From Actinocatenispora rupis (GTDB lineage Bacteria > Actinomycetota > Actinomycetes > Mycobacteriales > Micromonosporaceae), in contig NZ_BOMB01000029.1 of the NCBI RefSeq assembly GCF_016861975.1, positions 1-64,000 of the forward strand: a DNA stretch of 64,000 nt, given 5' to 3'. Under the pieces are notes generated by a model. That model was not told the DNA's origin and made no database searches. It was given only the letters and a program-made list of their open reading frames with translations. Below, in pieces: positions 1,327 to 55,899 of the stretch. The position numbers and the translations under genes are program-made. Each line of letters opens with the position of its first letter. Position 1 is the stretch's first letter.

Positions 1327-1447
1327 GCTACCCGCTACCGCGGATATAGGCGCTGATCAGGGGCTATGTAGGCGGTAGCGTGGGCCGGTAGCGCAGCCGC
1401 TACCTGTTGCGGCGGCTGCGCTACCGGATTCGGGCCGTCAGCTACCG
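1327..1447 (-). other. Cluster of seven GCTACC repeats, candidate clt transfer locus
   Basis: The hexamer GCTACC or its complement occurs at 1327, 1334, 1374, 1387, 1399, 1420 and 1441, often extended to GCTACCG. All seven lie within 121 bp immediately downstream of the FtsK/TraB-like gene and overlap its last codons. In Streptomyces plasmids TraB binds short direct repeats in the clt locus near its own gene. The match in position and repeat architecture is seen; function is inferred. Confidence 0.5.
1385..1427. repeat. Perfect 16-bp inverted repeat inside the GCTACC cluster
   Basis: Arms 1385-1400 and 1412-1427 are perfect reverse complements around an 11-nt loop and each carries a GCTACC unit. 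There is no T-tract on either side, so a simple intrinsic terminator is not obvious. It could be a terminator for the translocase gene, part of a transfer site, or a strand-specific origin. Confidence 0.6.
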
Positions 1448-3609
1448 GTCTGGCGGCGTTCCGCGGCGGCACCCAGGTGCGCCAGGTACGCGCCGCGCGG
1501 CCTCGCGTCGGCGTCGGGCAGGCTCTTGTCCCGGCCCGGCTTGGACGGCACCTTGAGCTTGCGCAGCTCGGCGGAGACCGCGTCGGCGTTGGTGTTGGCG
1601 TAGTGCTCCGGGATCTGCTCGGCGAGCCGGGCGGCGAGGGTCTGCCAGGACAGGAACGTCTCGCCGGTCAGGTACACGCTGGCCGCGTCGGCGAGCACGT
1701 CGCGCAGGTCGCGGGTTAGGTCCTCACCGGCGGCCTGCCCGGACAGCGTGCCGGCGGCCTGCCGGTGCTTGCGGGCGGCGGTCAGGATCTTCTCCGCGTC
1801 GGCGTGATCGGCCAGGTAGGTGCGGGTGATCGGGGTGTCGTCCGACGCCCCGTACAGGATCCCGACGCCGCGGTACTTCTCCCCGGCCGGCAGCGACGAC
1901 GCGTCGAACCCCTCGGAGTAGGCGTCACCGCCGAGGACCGCGTCGGACACGACCCGGTTGCCGCACTTGAGCGCGAACCGGACCGCGTGGTTGTCCCGGT
2001 ACCGGTTGAAGAGCCGCTGCACGTCACCGGCACCCACACCGGACGGCTTCTGCGACGACGACAGCAGGATCACCCCGGCCGACGGGCCGACCGCCTGGAT
2101 GTAGGCCAGCAGGCTGGCGATCTCCTTGTTGACCTCCTGGTCCTCGGTCTCGAAGTACGCCTGGAACTCCTCCATGACCAGCAGCCACACCCGCAGCTCC
2201 GGGTACTTGCGGGTCAGCTCCCGGGTCAGCTTGCCCTCGGGGCACTCGTCCACCGGCAGCTTGGACAGCAGGTCGTTGACCTGCTGGATGTGCGCCTTGA
2301 CCTCCCGCAACGCCTCCAGCAGGTGGCCGAGCGGGTCGTCGTCGCGGGAGTTCGGGACGGTGCCGAAGATGATCCGGTGCGCGACCAGCCGGAACTTGTC
2401 CCAGTCGGCCGACATCTTCCCGTCGGCGATGATGATCCGCACGTACGGATCCAGCGCCGCGTACAGGGCCAGCAGCCGCGCGGAGAACGTCTTGCCCTTG
2501 CGCGGCTGCGCACCGACCAGCACCGAAATCCACATCATCAGCAGCGACACCTTCCGGCCCCGCTCATCCAGACCGAACGGCGCCGGCTGCCAAATGTCGG
2601 TCGGCTTGCCCGACAGCAGCGGCGTACGGCCGGCCGCCACCGCCAGCGGATCCCGGTCGGCCACGAACAGCTTGTGCCGCCGGTTGCTGGACTCGTCGGC
2701 GGTGAGAAACACCTGGTTGAGCGACACGTCCAACCCCGACGCCAGCGATCCCTTGTTCTTCACCACGTCGGCGAACGTCTTGCCCCACGGCAGATCCACC
2801 ACCACCTCGGAGCCCTGCCCCAGCGGATCACGGGCCATGCCGGGCGGCGGGAACGCCACCTGCGCATCCTTCTTGTCGGGGTTGTGCAGCCCCGCCGCCT
2901 GGTACGCGCGCAGGATCACGTCGTAGTTCAGCTTCCGGTACCGCGGCGTCAGCACCGCCGGCGTGGTGATCGACCGGCCCGCACCGCGCCCGGTCCGGGC
3001 CAGCACCGGCCCGGCAACCGCGGTGGCCAGCATGTTCGCCCACCACGGCGCCGCCATCGCCATGAACGCGCCCGCGGCACCCACGGCCAGCAACTCCCCG
3101 CCGAGCACGACGCCGCGCCAGGCACGGACCCGGCGGGCCTCCCGGTGCAGCTTGTGCCACGTGTCCGGGTCGTTGTTGTCCCCGGCCGCGCGACGCAACG
3201 CCTCGGACTCCGACAGCCACCACCAGCGGCCCTGCTTCGCGGCGATGACGAACACGCCCTTCACCGCGAAAAACGAGCCCACCGCCAGGTACAGCGGGGA
3301 ACGCAGCCCGTGGTATCGGACCTGGTGCCACCAGCGGCCCACCGTGGTCTTGACGTGCGCGCGGAACGCCGCCACCGACCGCAGGGCCGGCGGCAGGATC
3401 GGCATCCGGGTTTCCACACCCAGCGCCGTCGGGGCGGTGAACTCCGGCGCCAGCACCGCCCGCGGCGCCGACTCCGGCTCCGGATCCAGCGCCACCTCGT
3501 ACGACGTGGCCGCCGGTGACACCGGCGCCGCGTCCTCCTTCGGGTCAGTGGTACGGGACAGGTCGGCCAGCGCCGCGTCCCAGTCCCGCTCACGGTCCTC
3601 GCTTGACAT
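1438..3609 (-). CDS. TraB/FtsK-like conjugative DNA translocase (723 aa)
   Basis: This is the element's DNA-transfer motor of the FtsK/SpoIIIE superfamily. Members of the TraB group form hexamers that move double-stranded DNA between mycelial cells. Visible parts are a hydrophilic N-terminus, membrane segments at about residues 107-125 and 167-205, a Walker A-like loop near 365 (GAQPRKGKTF) and a Walker B near 475 (LLVMEEF). The Walker A is divergent (PRKGKT rather than GxxGxGKS), as in many AICE translocases. The start at 3609 is an ATG after a GAGG-type site. The gene is unrelated at first sight to the second FtsK-like gene at 29136. Confidence 0.88.
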   Translation of the reverse strand: MSSEDRERDWDAALADLSRTTDPKEDAAPVSPAATSYEVALDPEPESAPRAVLAPEFTAPTALGVETRMPILPPALRSVAAFRAHVKTTVGRWWHQVRYHGLRSPLYLAVGSFFAVKGVFVIAAKQGRWWWLSESEALRRAAGDNNDPDTWHKLHREARRVRAWRGVVLGGELLAVGAAGAFMAMAAPWWANMLATAVAGPVLARTGRGAGRSITTPAVLTPRYRKLNYDVILRAYQAAGLHNPDKKDAQVAFPPPGMARDPLGQGSEVVVDLPWGKTFADVVKNKGSLASGLDVSLNQVFLTADESSNRRHKLFVADRDPLAVAAGRTPLLSGKPTDIWQPAPFGLDERGRKVSLLMMWISVLVGAQPRKGKTFSARLLALYAALDPYVRIIIADGKMSADWDKFRLVAHRIIFGTVPNSRDDDPLGHLLEALREVKAHIQQVNDLLSKLPVDECPEGKLTRELTRKYPELRVWLLVMEEFQAYFETEDQEVNKEIASLLAYIQAVGPSAGVILLSSSQKPSGVGAGDVQRLFNRYRDNHAVRFALKCGNRVVSDAVLGGDAYSEGFDASSLPAGEKYRGVGILYGASDDTPITRTYLADHADAEKILTAARKHRQAAGTLSGQAAGEDLTRDLRDVLADAASVYLTGETFLSWQTLAARLAEQIPEHYANTNADAVSAELRKLKVPSKPGRDKSLPDADARPRGAYLAHLGAAAERRQTGS

Positions 3610-5906: not shown

Positions 5907-6232
5907 CACGCCACCTGCCACGTGATACGGGGCAGCGCCCCGTAGACCGCGACGTGCACCCCGTCGATGGCGGGGCGGGGGCAGGGGACCCCGTAGTGCA
6001 CCCCCGAACCGGCCGAGTAGCTGTTGGCCGGCAGGTCGAAGGCGTCGGCCAGGCTGTCGACCGCCGCCACCACCGCGGCGTTGTCGTCGGAGCCGCGGAC
6101 CTGCAAGTCCAGCGACACCACGACCGGCGCTGGCAACGGCGTGTCCGGGTCGGAGGGGCCGGCCAGCTCGATCCGGTCGGCGATCGCCCGAAGTGCCGCG
6201 GCGATCTCGGGCCTGTGGGTGAAGGTGTCCAT
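5906..6232 (-). CDS. Hypothetical protein (108 aa)
   Basis: The predicted fold is alpha/beta: an N-terminal helix (PEIAAALRAIADRIEL), a strand (VVVSLDLQVRG), a helix and another strand (VHVAVYGAL). No known motif is visible. The ATG at 6232 is coupled by TGATG to the DUF6284-like gene upstream. A 23-residue in-frame extension would overlap that gene and lacks a ribosome site. Confidence 0.65.
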   Translation of the reverse strand: MDTFTHRPEIAAALRAIADRIELAGPSDPDTPLPAPVVVSLDLQVRGSDDNAAVVAAVDSLADAFDLPANSYSAGSGVHYGVPCPRPAIDGVHVAVYGALPRITWQVA

Positions 6233-6516
6233 CACGCGACCTGCTTCCTGTCGGACGGGCGGTGCGGGGTGGTGGGCTGCGTGGCGCGGTAGATCCGCCA
6301 CGCGGTGAACAGCGCGCGTTCGGCGGCCCGCAGGCGCCGCCAGGTCAGTTCGGTGGCACCGGCCAGCACGGCGATCTCCGCGTCGACCAGCGCCACCTCC
6401 GCGTCGATGACCGGTTCCTCGGCCTGGAGCGCGGCCATCTCGTCCGCGGTCGGCCCCTCCAGCTCCTCCAGCTTCTCCAGCGACGGACCCTCGTCCGGGT
6501 CGGTGTTGTCGTTCAC
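6232..6516 (-). CDS. DUF6284-like small helical protein (94 aa)
   Basis: The pattern of acidic helices ending in TWRRLRAAER, with the repeated hydrophobic run PVIDAEVALVDAEIAVL, is that of the DUF6284 family often found beside actinomycete integrative elements. Function is unknown. I chose the GTG at 6516, which follows a GTGAGG site. It is the first gene after hairpin H2 and begins a run of five TGATG-coupled genes. Confidence 0.6.
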   Translation of the reverse strand: MNDNTDPDEGPSLEKLEELEGPTADEMAALQAEEPVIDAEVALVDAEIAVLAGATELTWRRLRAAERALFTAWRIYRATQPTTPHRPSDRKQVA

Positions 6517-6566
6517 GTGAACCTCACTTCTGCTCGATCGGTTGGCAGTGCAGGGAAGAAGGGGGG

Positions 6567-6611
6567 CCGGGGCATGGCTGCCGTTCTCAGGCCATGGGGC
6601 CGATGCCCCGG
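6567..6611 (-). repeat. Intercistronic hairpin H2
   Basis: Arms 6567-6575 and 6603-6611 form nine base pairs, and further pairing is possible inside. It lies about 50 nt upstream of the DUF6284-like start, the same relative position as H1 before the translocase gene. It shares a 19-base loop string with H1 but has different stem bases. It sits between that gene and tRNA-like repeat 1. Confidence 0.55.
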
Positions 6612-6641
6612 CGCGTACCGGCGCCGTACAGGGCGCCTCGT

Positions 6642-6681
6642 GCCCGCCTCGGACTCGAACCGAGGTGTCTGCCGGTCGGGC
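6642..6681 (-). repeat. tRNA-like minihelix repeat 1
   Basis: Read on the minus strand it has a 5-bp acceptor-like stem (GCCCG/CGGGC), an 11-nt linker ACCGGCAGACA, and a T-arm with stem CCTCGG/CCGAGG and loop TTCGAGT. The T-stem differs from most copies by paired changes. It lies 11 nt downstream of the stop of the 6693-6887 gene. Confidence 0.75.
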
Positions 6682-6692
6682 GGATGTGGCCG

Positions 6693-6887
6693 TTAGCGCA
6701 GGCGGCGACGCAACTGGGCGACGAGGGTGTCGGCGGCGCCCTGAAGCACGGCGGTCTCGAACGCCTTCGCTTCCTTGGCGTGGCCTTCCCGGCGCATCTG
6801 TGCGATGACCGCGGCGATGCCGTCGATGTCGTGGCGCATCATCGCGGCCCTGATCTGCTCCCACTTGGCCTGCTGGTACGTGTTCAC
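6693..6887 (-). CDS. Small helical hypothetical protein (64 aa)
   Basis: The GTG start at 6887 follows an AAGGAGCG site. The protein looks like two or three amphipathic helices (WEQIRAAMMRHDIDGIAAVIAQM) with a basic end (LRRRLR). No family recognised. tRNA-like repeat 1 follows its stop codon. Confidence 0.6.
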   Translation of the reverse strand: MNTYQQAKWEQIRAAMMRHDIDGIAAVIAQMRREGHAKEAKAFETAVLQGAADTLVAQLRRRLR

Positions 6888-6916
6888 GCGGAGCGCTCCT
6901 TGGTCTCTGAGGTGTG

Positions 6917-7159
6917 TCAGGCGATGCCGAGTGCGGCGGTGCCCAGTCCGGTGCGCAGGTAGACGCCGCGGCGGCGGTTGCGTTCGGCGCGGATGCCGGC
7001 GTGGAGCTGTTCGAGGCCGTGCCCGGACTTCACGGCGTTGCCGACGATGTCGGCCAGGTCGAGCAGGTCCCGGTCGGTGAGGATCCCGATCCGGCTGCGG
7101 ACGGTGGTGTCCAGCCGGGCCGACGCCGCGGGCCGGCCCGCGGTGGTGTTCCGCTGCAT
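6917..7159 (-). CDS. Small hypothetical protein (80 aa)
   Basis: The ATG at 7159 follows a GGAGG site. A longer in-frame reading would run through tRNA-like repeat 2 and is rejected. A central helical stretch (LTDRDLLDLADIVGNAVKSG) is followed by a basic segment (RAERNRRR) and a hydrophobic C-terminus. Function unknown. Confidence 0.6.
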   Translation of the reverse strand: MQRNTTAGRPAASARLDTTVRSRIGILTDRDLLDLADIVGNAVKSGHGLEQLHAGIRAERNRRRGVYLRTGLGTAALGIA

Positions 7160-7210
7160 GTGTGCCTCCGTACGGTCGTGGCGCCAGCCCTGCTGTGCCG
7201 GTGCCGTCGT

Positions 7211-7250
7211 GCCCGCCCACGGCTCGAACGTGGGTGCCTGCCGGCCGGGC
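7211..7250 (-). repeat. tRNA-like minihelix repeat 2
   Basis: Acceptor-like stem GCCCG/CGGGC, linker GCCGGCAGGCA, T-stem CCCACG/CGTGGG, loop TTCGAGC. It lies nine nucleotides after the stop of the 7260-7463 gene and upstream of the 6917-7159 gene. Confidence 0.75.
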
Positions 7251-7259
7251 AGTGGCTGG

Positions 7260-7463
7260 TCAGCGACCGCGTTCACGTCGCTTGACGGCCTTCAACGCCT
7301 CTTCCGCGCGGCACACGGCGTCGTTGAGGTCGTTGAACTCCGGGGTCTCGTGGCGGATCCCGGCCTTCTTGTCGCGCTTGCCCTTGTCCTCCAGCGCCTT
7401 GTACGCGGCGTCGAGACGGGCCTCGGCGGCCTTGCGCTCCGGGCTCTTGTTGAACAGGCCCAC
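7260..7463 (-). CDS. Small MGLFxK-type hypothetical protein (67 aa)
   Basis: The GTG start at 7463 follows GGAGG. The N-terminus MGLFNKSP resembles MGLFDKAD of the protein at 7969-8124, and both continue as lysine/alanine-rich helices, so they are probably paralogues within this element. A long charged helix or coiled coil fills most of the protein. Confidence 0.65.
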   Translation of the reverse strand: MGLFNKSPERKAAEARLDAAYKALEDKGKRDKKAGIRHETPEFNDLNDAVCRAEEALKAVKRRERGR

Positions 7464-7508
7464 GGTGTTCCTCCGTCGGTCGGTGGCGCCGCGTCTCGGC
7501 GCCGTCGT

Positions 7509-7549
7509 GCCCTTCCCGGGCTCGAACCGGGGGTGCCTGCCAGTTGGGC
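7509..7549 (-). repeat. tRNA-like minihelix repeat 3
   Basis: The outer stem here is GCCC/GGGC with an A-A mismatch at the inner pair. The linker is shared with repeats 4 and 6 (ACTGGCAGGCA), the T-stem is CCCGG/CCGGG and the loop TTCGAGC. It is the most divergent outer stem besides repeat 5. Confidence 0.7.
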
Positions 7550-7565
7550 GACCGTGCGTGTGCGG

Positions 7566-7733
7566 CTACTTGCGGGCCTTCTTGCGGCACGTGGAGCAGG
7601 ACACGCTGTCGGCGCTGAGGAACTCGTCCGACGACCAGGCGAGCTTCGTGCCGCACAGCGCGCGTAGCCCGCTGCTGTCGGCGATGTGGACGGTGTTGCC
7701 GCTGTACTCCTTGCCGGCCATCACGCGCTTCAC
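7566..7733 (-). CDS. Small zinc-ribbon-like protein (55 aa)
   Basis: Cysteines in ALCGTK and in VSCSTCRKK suggest a one-metal ribbon. The GTG at 7733 follows a GGAGG site seven bases upstream. An ATG four codons later is an alternative start. It ends in a basic tail (CRKKARK). tRNA-like repeat 3 follows its stop. Confidence 0.6.
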   Translation of the reverse strand: MKRVMAGKEYSGNTVHIADSSGLRALCGTKLAWSSDEFLSADSVSCSTCRKKARK

Positions 7734-7775
7734 AGGGAAACCTCCAACTCGTGGCTGTCCTGTGTGGACAGTCGT

Positions 7776-7816
7776 GCCCGTCCCCGGGCTCGAACCGGGG
7801 TGCCTGCCAGTCGGGC
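7776..7816 (-). repeat. tRNA-like minihelix repeat 4
   Basis: Outer stem GCCCG/CGGGC, linker ACTGGCAGGCA, T-stem CCCCGG/CCGGGG, loop TTCGAGC, with one extra A between T-stem and outer stem. It is the downstream member of three repeats (6, 5, 4) that follow each other with only 27-28 nt spacers and no reading frame between them. Confidence 0.75.
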
Positions 7817-7844
7817 GACCGCCGGCCGTGCGCGGCTCCTGCCT

Positions 7845-7886
7845 ACCCATGCCTCGGGCTTGAACCGAGGTGCCTGCCGGTCGGGT
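7845..7886 (-). repeat. tRNA-like minihelix repeat 5
   Basis: The T-stem is CCTCGG/CCGAGG and the loop TTCAAGC, so both differ from the neighbours while pairing is kept. The outer stem is ACCC/GGGT with a possible G-U pair. It stands between repeats 6 and 4 without an intervening gene. Confidence 0.65.
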
Positions 7887-7913
7887 GATCGAGGGTTCGC
7901 GCTGTGCCTGCGT

Positions 7914-7953
7914 GCCCGCCCCGGGCTCGAACCGGGGTGCCTGCCAGTCGGGC
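7914..7953 (-). repeat. tRNA-like minihelix repeat 6
   Basis: Outer stem GCCCG/CGGGC, linker ACTGGCAGGCA, T-stem CCCCGG/CCGGGG, loop TTCGAGC. It lies about 15 nt after the stop of the 7969-8124 gene. Confidence 0.75.
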
Positions 7954-7968
7954 TCCTTGACCTGGGGG

Positions 7969-8124
7969 TCAGCGGCGGTACCAGGGCAGCTTCCGGGCGG
8001 CGTCCTTGTTGGCCCGCAGGTACTCGGCGTCGGGCTTGTCGCGGGTCGGAAGCTTGTCCAGCGCCGCTTTCGCTGCCTTGTACTCGCGCACCGCCGCCGG
8101 GTCGGCCTTGTCGAACAGCCCCAT
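7969..8124 (-). CDS. Small MGLFxK-type hypothetical protein (51 aa)
   Basis: The ATG at 8124 follows GGAGGTCCCC. The sequence is helical and highly charged (REYKAAKAALDKLPTRDK) and ends in WYRR. It resembles the protein at 7260-7463 at the N-terminus and in composition. Function unknown. Confidence 0.65.
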   Translation of the reverse strand: MGLFDKADPAAVREYKAAKAALDKLPTRDKPDAEYLRANKDAARKLPWYRR

Positions 8125-8171
8125 GACGGGGACCTCCATCCGTACGGGCACCGGCGAATCCGGCGCCTCGT

Positions 8172-8211
8172 GCCCGCCCACGGCTCGAACGTGGGTGCCG
8201 GCCAGCCGGGC
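8172..8211 (-). repeat. tRNA-like minihelix repeat 7
   Basis: Outer stem GCCCG/CGGGC, linker GCTGGCCGGCA, T-stem CCCACG/CGTGGG, loop TTCGAGC. It is nearly identical to repeat 11. Confidence 0.75.
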
Positions 8212-8218
8212 GGGTGTG

Positions 8219-8395
8219 TCAGCGGATGACTTCGCGGTGAAGGTGCGCACCGCGGTGCCCGGCGGGCTTGTCGCACCGCTTCCCGCAGCACTCGGTGCGC
8301 TGTCCGCAGGGGCCGCCTACCTGGATGACGCCGGACAGGTTGCCGGCCTGGATGCCGACCACGCCGCCGTTGCTGATGTTCGTGACGTTGCCCAT
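8219..8395 (-). CDS. Glycine-rich small protein with cysteine-rich tail (58 aa)
   Basis: This short gene reads MGNVTNISNGGVVGIQAGNL and continues with a second G-x-I/V-x-G strand, then a tail with four cysteines (PCGQRTECCGKRCDK) and histidines. An AGGAGAC site precedes the ATG. The N-terminal repeats suggest a small beta-structure, and the tail could bind zinc. I know no characterised relative. Confidence 0.6.
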   Translation of the reverse strand: MGNVTNISNGGVVGIQAGNLSGVIQVGGPCGQRTECCGKRCDKPAGHRGAHLHREVIR

Positions 8396-8443
8396 TCGCT
8401 TGTCTCCTACCGACAGGGCGCCGAGCGGACCTCGACGCCTCGT

Positions 8444-8483
8444 GCCCGCCCCGGGCTCGAACCGGGGTGCCAGCCAGTCGGGC
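8444..8483 (-). repeat. tRNA-like minihelix repeat 8
   Basis: Outer stem GCCCG/CGGGC, linker ACTGGCTGGCA, T-stem CCCCGG/CCGGGG, loop TTCGAGC. It lies between the genes at 8496-8663 and 8219-8395. Confidence 0.75.
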
Positions 8484-8495
8484 GTTGGGGCCGGG

Positions 8496-8663
8496 TTACC
8501 GGGTGTTGCGCACGGCGCGGGCCAGCCGCGCGGCGGCGGCTCGCTCGTCGCGCTTCGCCGCTTCTCGCTTGACCGGATCCCGCTCTACCGCCTGACGCCG
8601 GTCGGACGCGGCGTTGAGTTCGCGGGTGAGTCGCTGAACGGTCAAGTCATCGCCGGCAAGCAC
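8496..8663 (-). CDS. Small charged helical protein (55 aa)
   Basis: The GTG start at 8663 follows GGGAGACA. The translation is a nearly continuous charged helix (VQRLTRELNAASDRRQAVER, then REAAKRDERAAAARLARA), probably a coiled coil. Stop, tRNA-like repeat and next gene follow as at the other junctions. Confidence 0.55.
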   Translation of the reverse strand: MLAGDDLTVQRLTRELNAASDRRQAVERDPVKREAAKRDERAAAARLARAVRNTR

Positions 8664-8709
8664 TCGCTGTCTCCCTTCACCTCGGCACCGGACAGCCCGG
8701 CGCCGTCGT

Positions 8710-8749
8710 GCCCGCCCACGGCTCGAACGTGGGTGCCTGCCAGCCGGGC
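8710..8749 (-). repeat. tRNA-like minihelix repeat 9
   Basis: Outer stem GCCCG/CGGGC, linker GCTGGCAGGCA, T-stem CCCACG/CGTGGG, loop TTCGAGC. Identical over its length to repeat 10. Confidence 0.75.
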
Positions 8750-8757
8750 GGTGTGCG

Positions 8758-8847
8758 TCAGTGGTGTGTGACGCCCATGTAGATGGCGAAGGCGAGAGCG
8801 GCGAAGCTCGCCACGATGCCGAGCAGGTACGCGCCGGATCCGCGCAT
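8758..8847 (-). CDS. Single-span membrane microprotein (29 aa)
   Basis: An AGGAGGTCAGCC ribosome site precedes an ATG that opens a 29-codon gene. Its product is almost entirely one transmembrane helix (YLLGIVASFAALAFAIYMG) with short ends. It is flanked by tRNA-like repeats 9 and 10. The strong ribosome site and intact frame support a real gene despite its size. Confidence 0.55.
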   Translation of the reverse strand: MRGSGAYLLGIVASFAALAFAIYMGVTHH

Positions 8848-8886
8848 GGCTGACCTCCTGGGTCGGGTGGGTTGGTTGGTGTGCGT

Positions 8887-8926
8887 GCCCGCCCACGGCT
8901 CGAACGTGGGTGCCTGCCAGCCGGGC
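8887..8926 (-). repeat. tRNA-like minihelix repeat 10
   Basis: Outer stem GCCCG/CGGGC, linker GCTGGCAGGCA, T-stem CCCACG/CGTGGG, loop TTCGAGC. It lies between the stop of the 8943-9131 gene and the microprotein gene. Confidence 0.75.
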
Positions 8927-8942
8927 GGTGGCGCGGTGACGG

Positions 8943-9131
8943 TTACTGGCGCCAGCCGACGAGACGGCCCATGTCGGCGATGACCTTCTGGTAGAAGGCC
9001 CGCTGTTTCGGGGTGAGCTTGTTGCCGTGCTCGGCCAACTCCCGCGTGGCCATGTCGACCAGTCGGATACGCGCGTCGTACTTCTGGGCCGGGGTCCGCT
9101 CGTCGGCGGCGGCCTCGTTGCGGGTGGCCAC
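8943..9131 (-). CDS. Small helical hypothetical protein (62 aa)
   Basis: The GTG at 9131 follows a GGAGG site. The sequence is helical with alternating charge (PAQKYDARIRLVDMATREL, then KLTPKQRAFYQKVIADMGRL). No known domain. It may be a DNA-associated or regulatory microprotein, but nothing in the sequence proves this. Confidence 0.6.
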   Translation of the reverse strand: MATRNEAAADERTPAQKYDARIRLVDMATRELAEHGNKLTPKQRAFYQKVIADMGRLVGWRQ

Positions 9132-9185
9132 GGGTGGCCTCCTTCGATGGATGGGGAAACGGCGCCGGTGAGTCCGGCGCCTCGT

Positions 9186-9225
9186 GCCCGCCCACGGCTC
9201 GAACGTGGGTGCCGGCCAGCCGGGC
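9186..9225 (-). repeat. tRNA-like minihelix repeat 11
   Basis: Outer stem GCCCG/CGGGC, linker GCTGGCCGGCA, T-stem CCCACG/CGTGGG, loop TTCGAGC. It lies downstream of the 9253-9441 gene. Confidence 0.75.
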
Positions 9226-9252
9226 AGCCTTGCGGGGGAAGGGAAAGCGGGG

Positions 9253-9441
9253 TCAGCAGTGGGAGCCGTGCGGGTAGCACTGCTGGCACCAGCGGACCTG
9301 CTTGGCGTGCGCGTGCCCGACCGACGTACGCGCCGCGCTACGGGCGCTGCGGGCGTGGTTGCTGTCGGGCCGGTGCGCGATGCCGTCGACCAGGACGGTG
9401 TCGTCGGTGTTGGACAGCCGCTGTTCCAGGACGGTGGCCAT
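9253..9441 (-). CDS. Small His/Cys-containing protein (62 aa)
   Basis: The C-terminal part VRWCQQCYPHGSHC contains three cysteines and two histidines, which suggests a metal site. The ATG at 9441 is in a TGATG junction with the upstream gene, so both are read from one ribosome pass. Function unknown. Confidence 0.6.
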   Translation of the reverse strand: MATVLEQRLSNTDDTVLVDGIAHRPDSNHARSARSAARTSVGHAHAKQVRWCQQCYPHGSHC

Positions 9442-9686
9442 CAGAACTTCATGGACCGCATCTGCTTCGGGGACATGCCCCGCAGCTGCTGCATGCCCTT
9501 GTGGAAGTCGCCGCCGCCGAGCGCGGTGACGGTGTGCATGAAGTCCTCCACCGACACCGACGAGTGGGTGCGGCGGTTGTACTCCCCGGCCACCTTGTCG
9601 GCCGCCTCCGCCATCCAGGCGGTCACCTTGTGCTTGTCCATCAGCGCGCGGCCGAGGCGTCGCAGCAGGGGCTTGTTCTGTGCCAT
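9441..9686 (-). CDS. First gene of the leftward operon, hypothetical (81 aa)
   Basis: A helical protein (LLRRLGRALMDKHKVTAWMAEAADKV) with a glycine-rich turn and a basic end (MSPKQMRSMKF). A GAGAGGTG site precedes the ATG at 9686. It is the first coding sequence after a ~390-nt leader that contains hairpin H3 and tRNA-like repeat 12. No recognised family. Confidence 0.6.
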   Translation of the reverse strand: MAQNKPLLRRLGRALMDKHKVTAWMAEAADKVAGEYNRRTHSSVSVEDFMHTVTALGGGDFHKGMQQLRGMSPKQMRSMKF

Positions 9687-9724
9687 GATCGAGGCACCTC
9701 TCTCCTGAGAAGGGGTAAGGGGTG

Positions 9725-9770
9725 CCGGCCCGATCCCGTTGCTTTCCAGGGCTTTCAGGGATCGGGCCGG
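9725..9770 (-). repeat. Leader hairpin H3
   Basis: Thirteen-base arms at 9725-9737 and 9758-9770 pair perfectly around a 20-nt loop. It lies about 40 nt upstream of the first operon gene, the same position relative to a gene start as H1 and H2. It contains a TTTCAGG string similar to the TTCTCAGG of the other two. Confidence 0.55.
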
Positions 9771-9775
9771 TCCGT

Positions 9776-9815
9776 GCCCGCCCCGGACTCGAACCGGGGT
9801 GTCAGCCAGCCGGGC
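9776..9815 (-). repeat. tRNA-like minihelix repeat 12 (in the operon leader)
   Basis: Outer stem GCCCG/CGGGC, linker GCTGGCTGACA, T-stem CCCCGG/CCGGGG, loop TTCGAGT. It is the promoter-proximal copy and lies in the leader, so the repeats are not only intercistronic. Confidence 0.75.
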
Positions 9816-10084
9816 AGTTGTGTGCGGCCCTCGGTTGGGCGGAGCGGGCGGACAAGTCGTGCGGCCGGACACGTCAACGGCCGAACACCCGCGCGCCACC
9901 CCTAGGCCGCGTGCTTCCGGAGAAGAAGCGCAGAGATCGTCTGCGTGCCTCCGGGTAGTCGCTGTGCAGTTCTCAAACTTCGTTTGCGCGCGGCAGATCA
10001 GGGGCGTGCGCCTCCGGCGCCTTCCCCTCAGTGCTGTCGCTGCTTGTTGTCCCGATGCGCTCCTCGGCGACCGGAACAAGAAGC

Positions 10085-10114
10085 AAGTTACAGGTGTTCT
10101 AGAACACCTGTCAA
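10085..10114 (-). promoter_or_regulatory. Leftward transfer-operon promoter overlapped by a 22-bp operator
   Basis: On the minus strand TTGACA (10114-10109) and TAACTT (10090-10085) are separated by 18 bp, a good sigma-70-like promoter. A perfect 22-bp palindrome with core AGGTGTTCTAGAACACCT occupies 10090-10111, covering the whole spacer. Binding here would block the promoter. The likely ligand-responsive repressor is the adjacent GntR protein (10203). Confidence 0.65.
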
Positions 10115-10136
10115 TAGGGTCGACCAAGGTCGACGT

Positions 10137-10177
10137 TTGCGCAGGTCAAGGCGCAAGCTAGGATGTGTTCTAGAACG
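10137..10177 (+). promoter_or_regulatory. Rightward promoter of the GntR-purC operon with second operator
   Basis: TTGCGC (10137-10142) and TAGGAT (10159-10164) are 16 bp apart and point toward the GntR gene. GTTCTAGAAC at 10167-10176 repeats the core of the leftward operator directly downstream of the -10, consistent with autoregulation. The spacing to the ATG is about 26 bp. Confidence 0.5.
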
Positions 10178-10202
10178 CGAGCAACGACCGTGGGAGTTGG
10201 GG

Positions 10203-10961
10203 ATGGCCCCTCAGATCAGCAGAACGCCGCCGCCGTACATGCAGGTCGCCCAGTCCATTCGGGACCAGATCGCGTCCGGTCAGCTCAAGGACGGGGATCG
10301 GATCCCCTCGGCTCGGGCGATCGCGAAGGAGTGGAACGTCTCGCACGCCACCGCCGCCAAGGTGCTCACGCAGCTTCAGTCCGAAGGCCTCGTACGCGGG
10401 GTGCAGGGGAGCGGCACCGTCGTGTGTGCCGGCGAGAACAGCCACGAGACCGCTCGGGATCGGGTGACCTCGATCAAGCGGACGGGCCGGATCTACCCGC
10501 AGGGCCAGCAGGCACGCATCGTCGCCGCCGACCTGGTGTCCGCGCCCGACCAGGTGGCGAGCGCGCTGGGTGTGTCGGTGGGTGCGCCGGTGATTCGGCG
10601 CCAGCGCGTGACGTACCGCGGGGACGAGGCGGTATCCACGTCGGTGAGTTGGTTCGATGGCTCGCTGGCGAAGGCTGCTCCGCTGTTGCTGCGGGCGGAA
10701 CGTCTCCCGCAGGGAACGCCGATGTACATCCAGGAATCCACCGGCCGCGAGGGCGTATCTGGCCGCGACCAGGTGGCGGCGCGCGCGGCCACCGACGAGG
10801 ATGCCGAGGTGCTTGGCGTGCCGGCCGGATCCCCCGTGCGGTGCGGCCGGAACTGGGTCTACGACACTGACGGTGGAGTCATCGAGTACGGCGAGAGCGT
10901 GTCACTGCCCGAGCGGTGGGCGTCGTACGACTACAAGATCGAGCGGGAGCAGAACGCGTGA
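10203..10961 (+). CDS. GntR-family regulator, HutC/UTRA type (252 aa)
   Basis: The N-terminal winged helix (IRDQIASGQLKDGDRIPSAR, then AIAKEWNVSHATAAKVLTQL) is followed by a UTRA-like effector domain from about residue 85. This is the architecture of KorSA-like repressors that keep transfer genes of integrative elements silent. Two TGTTCTAGAAC sites flank its promoter region and the leftward tra promoter, so it probably represses both. It overlaps purC by four bases (GTGA). Confidence 0.85.
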   Translation: MAPQISRTPPPYMQVAQSIRDQIASGQLKDGDRIPSARAIAKEWNVSHATAAKVLTQLQSEGLVRGVQGSGTVVCAGENSHETARDRVTSIKRTGRIYPQGQQARIVAADLVSAPDQVASALGVSVGAPVIRRQRVTYRGDEAVSTSVSWFDGSLAKAAPLLLRAERLPQGTPMYIQESTGREGVSGRDQVAARAATDEDAEVLGVPAGSPVRCGRNWVYDTDGGVIEYGESVSLPERWASYDYKIEREQNA

Positions 10962-11803
10962 AGCACGTCTACAGCGGGAAGATCCGCGACCTCTACCAGG
11001 ACGACAACGGCGACCTGATCCTCGTCGCCTCCGACAAGGTCTCGGTGTACGACGTGGTGCTGCCCACGCCGATCCCGGACAAGGGCAAGCTGCTGACACA
11101 GCTGTCGCTGTGGTGGTTCGAGCAGCTCGCCGATGTGGTGCCCAACCACGTCATCTCCAGCACCGACGTACCCGCCGAGTGGGCAGGTCGCGCCGTGCGG
11201 TGCCGGCCGTTGAAGATGCTGACGGTCGAGTGCATCGCCCGCGGCTACCTGGCCGGTCTGGGGCTCAAGGAGTACGAGAAGCAGGGGTCGGTGTCGGGCG
11301 TCGCGCTGCCGGCCGGCCTGGTCGAGGGATCCAAGCTGCCCGAGCCGATCTTCACGCCGACCACGAAGGCGACCGAGGGGCATGACGAGTTCATCACCTT
11401 CGATGAGGTGGTCAGTGAGTTCGGCGCCGACATGACCACGCGGCTGCGTGACCTGACGTTGGAGATCTACAGCCGTGGCGCGGCGGTCGCCCGTGAGCGC
11501 GGCATCATCATCGCGGACACTAAGGTCGAGTTCGGTATCGACGCCGAGGGTCGCGTGGTCCTGGCCGACGAGGTACTCACCTCCGACTCGTCCCGCTTCT
11601 GGGCCGTTGACGAGTGGGAGCCGGGACGCCCCGGCGGTCAGCGGGCGATGGACAAGCAGTTCGTACGCGACTGGTCCTCGACCCTGACCGACTGGGACCG
11701 CACGTACCCCGGGCCGGAGATCCCGGCCGACATCGTCGCCGCCACCCGTGCCCGCTACGTCGAGGCGTACGAGCGGATCACCGGCAACACATGGGAGTCC
11801 TGA
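10958..11803 (+). CDS. purC: Phosphoribosylaminoimidazole-succinocarboxamide synthase (281 aa)
   Basis: SAICAR synthase joins aspartate to CAIR with ATP in purine synthesis. The protein is full length for the family, with the N-terminal nucleotide-binding start (YSGKIRDLY, LVASDKVSVYDVV), the central GSVSGVALPAGL and PEPIFTPTTKATEGHDE motifs, IIIADTKVEFG, and the SSRFWAVDEWEPG-FDKQFVRDW-type C-terminus. I chose the GTG at 10958, coupled to the GntR stop. Finding it inside a conjugative element under a transfer regulator is unusual. Whether the host has another purC cannot be seen here. Confidence 0.9.
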   Translation: MKHVYSGKIRDLYQDDNGDLILVASDKVSVYDVVLPTPIPDKGKLLTQLSLWWFEQLADVVPNHVISSTDVPAEWAGRAVRCRPLKMLTVECIARGYLAGLGLKEYEKQGSVSGVALPAGLVEGSKLPEPIFTPTTKATEGHDEFITFDEVVSEFGADMTTRLRDLTLEIYSRGAAVARERGIIIADTKVEFGIDAEGRVVLADEVLTSDSSRFWAVDEWEPGRPGGQRAMDKQFVRDWSSTLTDWDRTYPGPEIPADIVAATRARYVEAYERITGNTWES

Positions 11804-51769: not shown

Positions 51770-52019
51770 TGAGTTGATCTTGAACGCTGCGCGCGCCAAG
51801 CGCCAAGCACCAGCGCTTGAACGCTGCGCGTCAAGCGCCCGAGCGCCAAACGCCCGAAGGCCAAGCGCCCGGACGCCCGGCACCTGAGCACCGACCGCCC
51901 GACCGCCCGACCGCCCGACCAGTCACCCACCCCACGACAAGGGCCGGCCCCTCCATCCACAATGGACAGAAGAGCCGGCCCACGTACGCCAGGCCCACCC
52001 GGGCCCGCGCCTCAACCGT

Positions 52020-55826: not shown

Positions 55827-55899
55827 GCGCCCGTAGCTCAACGGATAGAGCATCTGACTACGGATCAGAAGGTTGGGGGTTCGAATCCCTCCGGGCGCA
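55827..55899 (+). tRNA. tRNA-Arg(ACG)
   Basis: A complete 73-nt cloverleaf: acceptor GCGCCCG/CGGGCGC, D-arm with TAGCTCAACGGATAGAGCA, anticodon arm CTGACTACGGATCAG with anticodon ACG, and T-arm GGGGGTTCGAATCCCTC. The 3' CCA is not encoded. The debris-rich region downstream suggests it has served as an insertion site. Confidence 0.95.

Follow-up and report, generated by a model that had tools for sequence, protein, structure and literature searches.

Miniature tRNA-like units at small-gene junctions of actinobacterial phages and integrative elements as possible sites for tRNA-processing enzymes

Why should a short tRNA-like unit recur among the small genes of a single operon? We analysed a window of 64,000 nucleotides (nt) from Actinocatenispora rupis (contig NZ_BOMB01000029.1, positions 1 to 64,000), for which an earlier sequence-only reading had proposed 12 minus-strand copies of a ~40-nt unit built like the acceptor stem and T-arm of a transfer RNA (tRNA). 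All 12 copies were found at the positions it gave (Table 1), three of them (7914, 7845 and 7776) within a single intergenic stretch. A covariance model built from the copies (R1) was run against the 7.8-Mb genome of the organism and recovered all 12 at E 8.8e-7 or better; beyond them no match had E <1, the next standing at E 3 (scores were computed for 150 of the 26320 first-look candidates). Rfam gave no match at gathering score at the copies, the sole match in the window being a tRNA at 55827. RF00005 was unmatched across 6000-10200 even at E 5, and ARAGORN called no tRNA at the copies and no transfer-messenger RNA (tmRNA) in the window.

The paired base changes noticed among the T-stem variants of the window are real: CCCACG, CCCCGG and CCTCGG occur with matching 3' sides, so that 95.9% of cells are paired (0 of 500 shuffles as high). 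In alignments fitted to the stems, 54 distinct copies had changes on both sides in 9 of 11 stem pairs, and 119 distinct sequences in 10 of 11. In the larger set 99.8% of cells are paired; shuffling lowers this figure to 74.3% and sliding to 31-52%. Five pairs per stem vary with compensation in the set of 119. Alignment A7 holds the best 150 of the 237 model matches; the 87 weaker ones enter no count. Thermodynamic folding of nine window copies with their flanks was mostly non-significant (z +0.24 to -2.14), and the folding of single sequences, uninformative in this GC-rich DNA, was dropped as evidence. The case for RNA structure is a comparative one, not one of single-sequence folding.

Tertiary pairs, to which no alignment had been fitted, were sought by scanning 215 distinct copies of 45 nt for mutual information without guidance (230 distinct cores less 15 with indels). 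Two pairs outside the modelled stems, 14-29 and 7-13, ranked among the stem pairs, and 9-24 ranked lower. Positions 14 and 29 were paired in all 215 copies (AU 109, GC 84, GU 8, UA 7, CG 7) and positions 7 and 13 in 214 (CG 162, GC 25, AU 23, rarer pairs 4, unpaired 1). When the set was pruned to one copy per locus (n=70), both pairs were kept in 70/70, with 0 of 5000 permutations as high. The window copies follow the same rule, with A14 facing U29 in 2 and G14 facing C29 in 10. Position 9-24 was GU in 208 copies, AG in 6 and GC in 1; all six A9 copies have G24, and A-G was also found there in three of the 15 indel copies. Position 10-25 was GC in 215/215, a constancy partly fixed by the retrieval patterns, and 15-28 was CG in 214 and GC in 1. 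In our mapping, 24 and 29 correspond to T-loop positions 55 and 60, and 9 and 10 to G18 and G19. On this comparison 9-24 appears coupled in the manner of tRNA G18-Psi55 (Psi, pseudouridine), 10-25 would correspond to G19-C56, and 15-28 together with 14-29 is predicted to form a pseudoknot of 2 base pairs (bp) onto the T-loop. Units of this kind, called type I below, thus carry the G18-Psi55 and G19-C56 pairs and the TTCRANY T-loop of a tRNA elbow.

Because 14-29, 7-13 and 9-24 covary outside the modelled stems, we read the linker as the strand of a D-loop that docks onto the T-loop. The earlier claim that anticodon arm and D-arm are both missing therefore holds in part: ~40 nt leave no room for an anticodon arm and a D-stem is absent, yet the linker of 11 nt behaves like a D-loop strand in pairing with the T-loop. 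An origin from tRNA-Leu, suspected from GCCCG and TGGCAGAC, was dropped because the strand resembles, by eye, the general host form YGGCAGAGCA. With covariation both in the stems and between linker and T-loop, selection on RNA structure has strong support, and we regard an RNA structure as nearly certain from the comparative data.

The 3' end of the unit was compared with host tRNA genes. Of type I copies, 199/215 have G1-C72, and the tail reads R73 in 215, C74 in 214 and G/U75 in 188 of the 215, with a mild bias to A73-C74 since the copies used to train R1 and a later model, R2, end mostly in AC. CCA follows the unit in just 4/215. Host tRNA genes without CCA (n=39) have C74 in 39/39 and G/U75 in 31/39; they belong to a sample of 48 distinct genes from 30 loci (65 tRNA matches in the genome), some of them in arrays with unusual tRNAs. 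By these counts the unit's 3' end resembles that of CCA-less host tRNA genes. An avoidance of pairing between -1 and 73 was considered and rejected, the counts being about as composition predicts. The host RNase P RNA has GGGTAG at the place taken by eye for the L15 loop.

A second structural type was first met in phage Konstantine, in gaps without a model match, where related units have the linker AUGGUCGNAG. A viral scan for this type II returned 79 stretches, and 87 pattern matches from all fetched loci gave 64 distinct sequences, the scan having fixed linker, loop, pair 22-30 and C36. At least five of six pairs form in both stems in 62/64 and all 12 pairs in 58/64; the helix of acceptor and T-stem counts 12 bp in type II and 11 bp in type I. 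The tail again shows C74 (56 of 62) and G/U75 (45 of 62), and an upstream stop codon most often ends 5-9 nt before the unit. Both types occur together in Konstantine and Endor1. The likeness to tRNA noted earlier is accordingly upheld by tertiary covariation, a tRNA-gene-like 3' end and two structural types. More divergent units were seen by eye in other gaps. In the type II units of loci L210 and L213, ATG directly follows the unit's AC (ACATGAGC), and a cut at that point would leave the message almost without a leader.

Where do the units lie relative to genes? In nine annotated phage regions, 58/58 tabulated copies were intergenic and on the coding strand; two weaker matches omitted from the 58 (L085 3010 and L206 4598, on the minus strand among minus-strand genes) are also intergenic by annotation. 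The upstream stop was 5-16 nt away in 43/58 and 109-134 nt away in five. The next gene started at a median of 46 nt downstream in both phage sets. Over 257 copies, stop codons peaked 5-9 nt upstream, at 0.61 per copy, compared with 0.09-0.14 for each bin farther than 25 nt away, and a Shine-Dalgarno (SD) sequence plus start codon was found within 120 nt downstream in 193/257, against 405/1300 random places. All copies lay on a single strand in 41/41 multi-copy loci. Gaps of 80-120 nt often contain a single copy, but some contain a divergent unit and some none. Just downstream, 7/12 window copies have a hairpin folding at -14 kcal/mol or lower; over 113 loci this stretch had a mean z of -0.92 with 39 below -1.5, compared with 0.02 and 11 for the next 32 nt. 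These values are suggestive, and we kept the hairpin out of the definition of the unit. Some leaders carry several units ~60 nt apart with NNGGC pentamer repeats between them (GGCATGGCAAGGC...), as at L137 9800-11500, L151 1400-3100 and L092 6500-7200.

Besides the 12 copies from which it was built, R1 recovers relatives in other genomes. At E 0.001 with stricter filters it matched 5 of 354 family genomes including the organism's own (12 copies there, 7 in genome G002, 1 in G003, and 2 copies apiece in a pair of genomes from another genus). Of 396 genomes drawn over the phylum, own included, 3 had matches at this E value, also under stricter filters. G003 has a second weak copy (E 0.0068) with the acceptor GCTTG/CAAGC. 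A pattern scan returned 5 genome contigs and 13 viral contigs, Streptomyces phage phiHau3 among the latter and a Corynebacterium halotolerans contig in both. A looser viral scan returned at least 120 stretches; it fixed GG, C11, A12, C15, A16, the T-loop, pair 22-30, G5 and C36, with R14 and Y29 as classes, and left free columns 7 and 13, pairs 1-4 and 18-20, the choice of A/G and C/U at 14-29, and positions -1 and 73-75. The first scan had additionally fixed the acceptor letters, C7 and G13. In total 278 model matches were obtained across 117 further loci, nearly all viral. With model R2, Mycobacterium phage Rope has 10 copies and Vanseggelen and Saftant have 8 apiece; these three are among 16 records that had been picked for having a match, and three Rope copies lie outside the region fetched. 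R2 also found copies in Konstantine, Oaker and Gordonia phage Aleemily. BLAST with a 42-nt consensus listed 182 phage records with E no worse than 10. Query coverage is at least 80% in 140 of them, and some weak rows are real tRNAs or chance; the genera include Streptomyces (113, duplicates included), Mycobacterium (47) and Gordonia (4). Another consensus gave 309 records, many weak. Weak matches at L034 8469, L031 8523, L051 7614 and L041 6252, the last on the strand opposite the other L041 copies, were not used. This distribution suggests that the unit is a trait of mobile DNA. In Streptomyces phage Endor2 (L208 3452-3534) an annotated tRNA-Arg looks like a misread unit, since the annotation overlaps a coding sequence and covers the unit at 3493. 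A similar tRNA-Arg label lies beneath the BLAST match in phage Sitrop.

What might such a unit do? Taken as a miniature tRNA, it comprises an acceptor stem (5 or 6 bp), the strand of a D-loop with its two docking G's and a T-arm with a 6-bp stem, and ends in R73-C74-G/U75 like most CCA-less host tRNA genes. Its stems make up a helix of 11-12 bp, near the 12 bp from T-loop to cut in real tRNAs. Host RNase P could recognise the unit by its elbow, its acceptor end and C74, and cut just before position 1, a few nt past the upstream stop codon. Polycistronic RNA of phages and conjugative elements would then yield shorter messages, each with a tightly structured 5' end. A further cut, after position 73, may come from RNase Z. 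We favour RNase P because it reads the elbow, acceptor end and 3' RCC and cuts hairpins made of acceptor and T-arm. PMC11143913 describes contacts with G1-C72, the 3' RCC and the T-loop/elbow, cleavage of such hairpins, and interference at G19, G53 and A58 in nucleotide analogue interference mapping, and PMC4810234 reports recognition of the elbow by both RNase P and RNase Z, the latter in CCA-less precursors. A site for tRNA-processing enzymes is probably the best reading of the elbow, C74 and the position after stops taken together. That the units are punctuation cut by host RNase P, perhaps with RNase Z, we put at about an even chance. The broader proposal, that actinobacterial phages and conjugative elements carry elbow-only tRNAs of at least two types at many small-gene junctions, where host RNase P (and RNase Z) would cut polycistronic RNA, we advance tentatively, at slightly under even.

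Several observations weigh against punctuation cut by RNase P. Position 75 is seldom C, which makes the RCC contact partial, as in host CCA-less genes, and -1 is A in 65% of units compared with C/U in host tRNA leaders. In type II, G1 (41 of 62) and R73 (45 of 62) are loosely kept, and these RNase P-like features therefore belong to type I only; type I in turn has a helix of 11 bp, not 12. Multiple copies in single leaders, including 7914/7845/7776 in the window, are superfluous for punctuation. At 9-24, the pruned set of 70 has 2 A-G cases from few loci (2 of 5000 permutations as high), and the constancy of the GG, CA and T-loop letters is partly due to sampling because the retrieval patterns fixed them. 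Cutting does not explain the multi-unit leaders, nor that type I has an 11-bp helix and that position 1 is free in type II. A rival reading has the elbow bound rather than cut, whether by the ribosomal E site/L1 stalk, the CCA enzyme, a modification enzyme or a regulator, so as to control translation or stability of the next gene, or has the copies titrate such a factor as decoys. Several copies per leader fit titration, the kept elbow letters and pairs and the regular median of 46 nt to the next start fit a binder, many of which are known for the elbow (PMC4810234), and type II retains the elbow but not G1 or R73. Binding alone leaves C74 and the tRNA-gene-like 3' signature of both types unexplained, and we consider it an unlikely reading, if a substantial one.

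It is improbable, in our view, that 3' processing dominates, with an RNase Z cut after 73, and perhaps the addition of CCA, so that upstream messages would be protected by a tRNA-like 3' end. Some long non-coding RNAs and plant viral RNAs provide a precedent for such ends, CCA blocks RNase Z and follows just those four units, and the units mostly stand directly after stop codons. Against this, G1-C72 is kept in type I, and protection of a 3' end makes little sense for the copy at 9776, without an upstream operon gene, or for the five phage copies 109-134 nt past a stop. DNA-level sites, such as repressor stoperators, recombination linkers or gene-shuffling repeats, are very improbable. Five window copies do share 30 identical nt, and stoperators are likewise intergenic in one orientation according to PMC3029335, but stem letters vary freely while the arms match, and a fixed DNA site would not covary in stems and tertiary pairs. 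A fixed asymmetric operator was rejected on the same compensated variation of five pairs per stem. Least credible of all are relics of tRNA genes or attachment (att) sites left by integration into tRNAs: end repeats do lie at tRNA genes in three relative elements, yet a single consensus runs across phages and elements using different tRNAs, with compensatory change and regular placement at gene junctions.

How does the unit relate to known systems? Mitochondrial polycistronic RNA is punctuated by tRNAs, and plant mitochondria have t-elements; tRNA or tRNA-like structures likewise stand between genes there, and tRNA-processing enzymes release the messages. Those are whole tRNAs or t-elements in organelles, whereas here ~40-nt units without anticodon arm or D-stem lie in bacterial phages and conjugative elements, and their cleavage is putative. 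The tRNA-like domain of tmRNA, with acceptor, T-arm and a D-loop without D-stem, is similar, but no tag-coding domain accompanies the unit, in keeping with the ARAGORN result for the window. The cloverleaf tRNA (RF00005) has the anticodon arm that the unit lacks. Start-associated repeats of mycobacteriophages are also repeated, oriented and intergenic, as short DNA sites of fixed letters. Mycobacteriophage stoperators are sites of this kind too (PMC3029335), in contrast to the RNA covariation seen here. The RNase P model hairpin AT1, described in PMC11143913, is artificial, whereas our unit is natural, multi-copy and has a D-loop strand paired to the T-loop. The same paper names RNase P substrates in phage and operon RNA (P1/P7 C4 RNA, T4 gene 32, E. 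coli operon mRNAs), a precedent of single cases with no shared repeat named there. According to PMC4810234 and PMC12710915, plant virus tRNA-like structures of the turnip yellow mosaic virus type also mimic the elbow with pseudoknotting, but they sit at 3' ends of RNA genomes, near full size and with a CCA end; the present units are intergenic, many per genome, have an elbow pseudoknot and occur in DNA phages.

The claim that no described family has this layout stands in the material covered: neither Rfam nor ARAGORN matched the copies, and no description appeared among the open-access papers that the searches listed, though a description in another paper is possible. A word search of phage papers, including PMC10656467, found no mention, and passages of PMC5311408 and PMC11536984 do not name the family. 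What appears new is the RNA family, its elbow pseudoknot and its proposed gene-junction role; the idea of tRNA mimicry and RNase P itself were already known. This would be an RNA family that went unnoticed although about a hundred actinophage records on deposit contain it. The unit shows that a small part of a tRNA suffices to build an elbow, may be a natural source of minimal RNase P substrates and suggests a way in which compact phage operons separate messages. If the proposal is true, bacterial viruses would have their own counterpart of the tRNA punctuation of mitochondria, one that does without whole tRNAs.

Table 1. Copies of the tRNA-like unit and associated genes in the window (bits and E values of the copies are those of R1 in the organism's own genome).
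Feature	Position	Strand	Evidence and spacing
Copy 1, leader of first operon gene	9776..9815	-	67.9 bits, E 1.9e-9; no upstream operon gene; 89 nt to start
Copy 2	9186..9225	-	R1 match; stop 27 nt before, start 54 nt after
Copy 3	8887..8926	-	R1 match; stop 16 nt before, start 39 nt after
Copy 4	8710..8749	-	R1 match; stop 8 nt before, start 46 nt after
Copy 5	8444..8483	-	74 bits, E 1.1e-10; stop 12 nt before, start 48 nt after
Copy 6	8172..8211	-	R1 match; stop 7 nt before, start 47 nt after
Copy 7, leading the three that share an intergenic stretch	7914..7953	-	R1 match; stop 15 nt before
Copy 8, divergent: A-U first acceptor pair, 2-nt bulge	7845..7886	-	54.7 bits, E 8.8e-7
Copy 9, 1-nt bulge between stems	7776..7816	-	R1 match; start 42 nt after
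Copy 10, offset CCCGG T-stem	7509..7549	-	62.6 bits; stop 16 nt before, start 45 nt after
Copy 11	7211..7250	-	R1 match; stop 9 nt before, start 51 nt after
Copy 12	6642..6681	-	R1 match; stop 11 nt before, start 125 nt after
12 small genes (29-94 aa), copies 2-12 among them	6232..9686	-	own gene call from third-position GC (GC3) and SD
FtsK/TraB-like DNA translocase gene, further along operon	1438..3609	-	34% identity, E 7e-84, to FtsK-like protein of the G002 element
GntR/UTRA regulator gene, divergent, at operon head	10203..10961	+	Pfam PF00392 and PF07702

The operon had been taken for a conjugation operon. In support, its FtsK-like protein shares 34% identity with the one encoded by a complete relative element, but the family of units proved at least as much a phage feature. 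In tblastn this protein matched annotated FtsK on Streptomyces and Pseudonocardia plasmids, and by itself it had no Pfam, NCBIfam or PDB match. A plasmid search with the window DNA was unmatched. Among the small-gene products, those of 81, 80 and 51 aa were unmatched in Pfam and those of 67, 58 and 29 aa in NCBIfam, where the 81-aa product had just one match, below cut-off (E 0.07). The relative element in G002 (L030) holds an integrase, Prim-Pol, an FtsK-like protein (below cut-off) and GntR, is flanked by 25-bp repeats of which the first lies in tRNA-Tyr, and looks like an actinomycete integrative element. Two other loci have end repeats of 59 bp and 48/29 bp at tRNA-Ser and tRNA-Pro, and L031 and L034 have no tRNA-associated end repeat within 18 kb. 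The window operon extends to the contig start, and any integrase gene or att site would lie beyond.

A similar leader of ~100 nt (GCGGCCTAGGGGTGGCGCGCGGGTGT...), perhaps a promoter region, precedes the first unit in the window (9820-9910) and in L030 (11990-12090). An ARAGORN tRNA-Gln at window 51802-51886, in repetitive GC-rich sequence and without an Rfam match, is probably false. Beside the operon, at window 10203-11803, the GntR/UTRA gene and a SAICAR synthetase (purC-like) gene overlap, and a PIN-domain protein (PF18476) is encoded at L030 13424-14767, within the relative integrative element. The organism's own genome (G000) also has dense tRNA arrays with unusual tRNAs, as on mobile elements, at C48 39000-40900 and C17 218300-218900.

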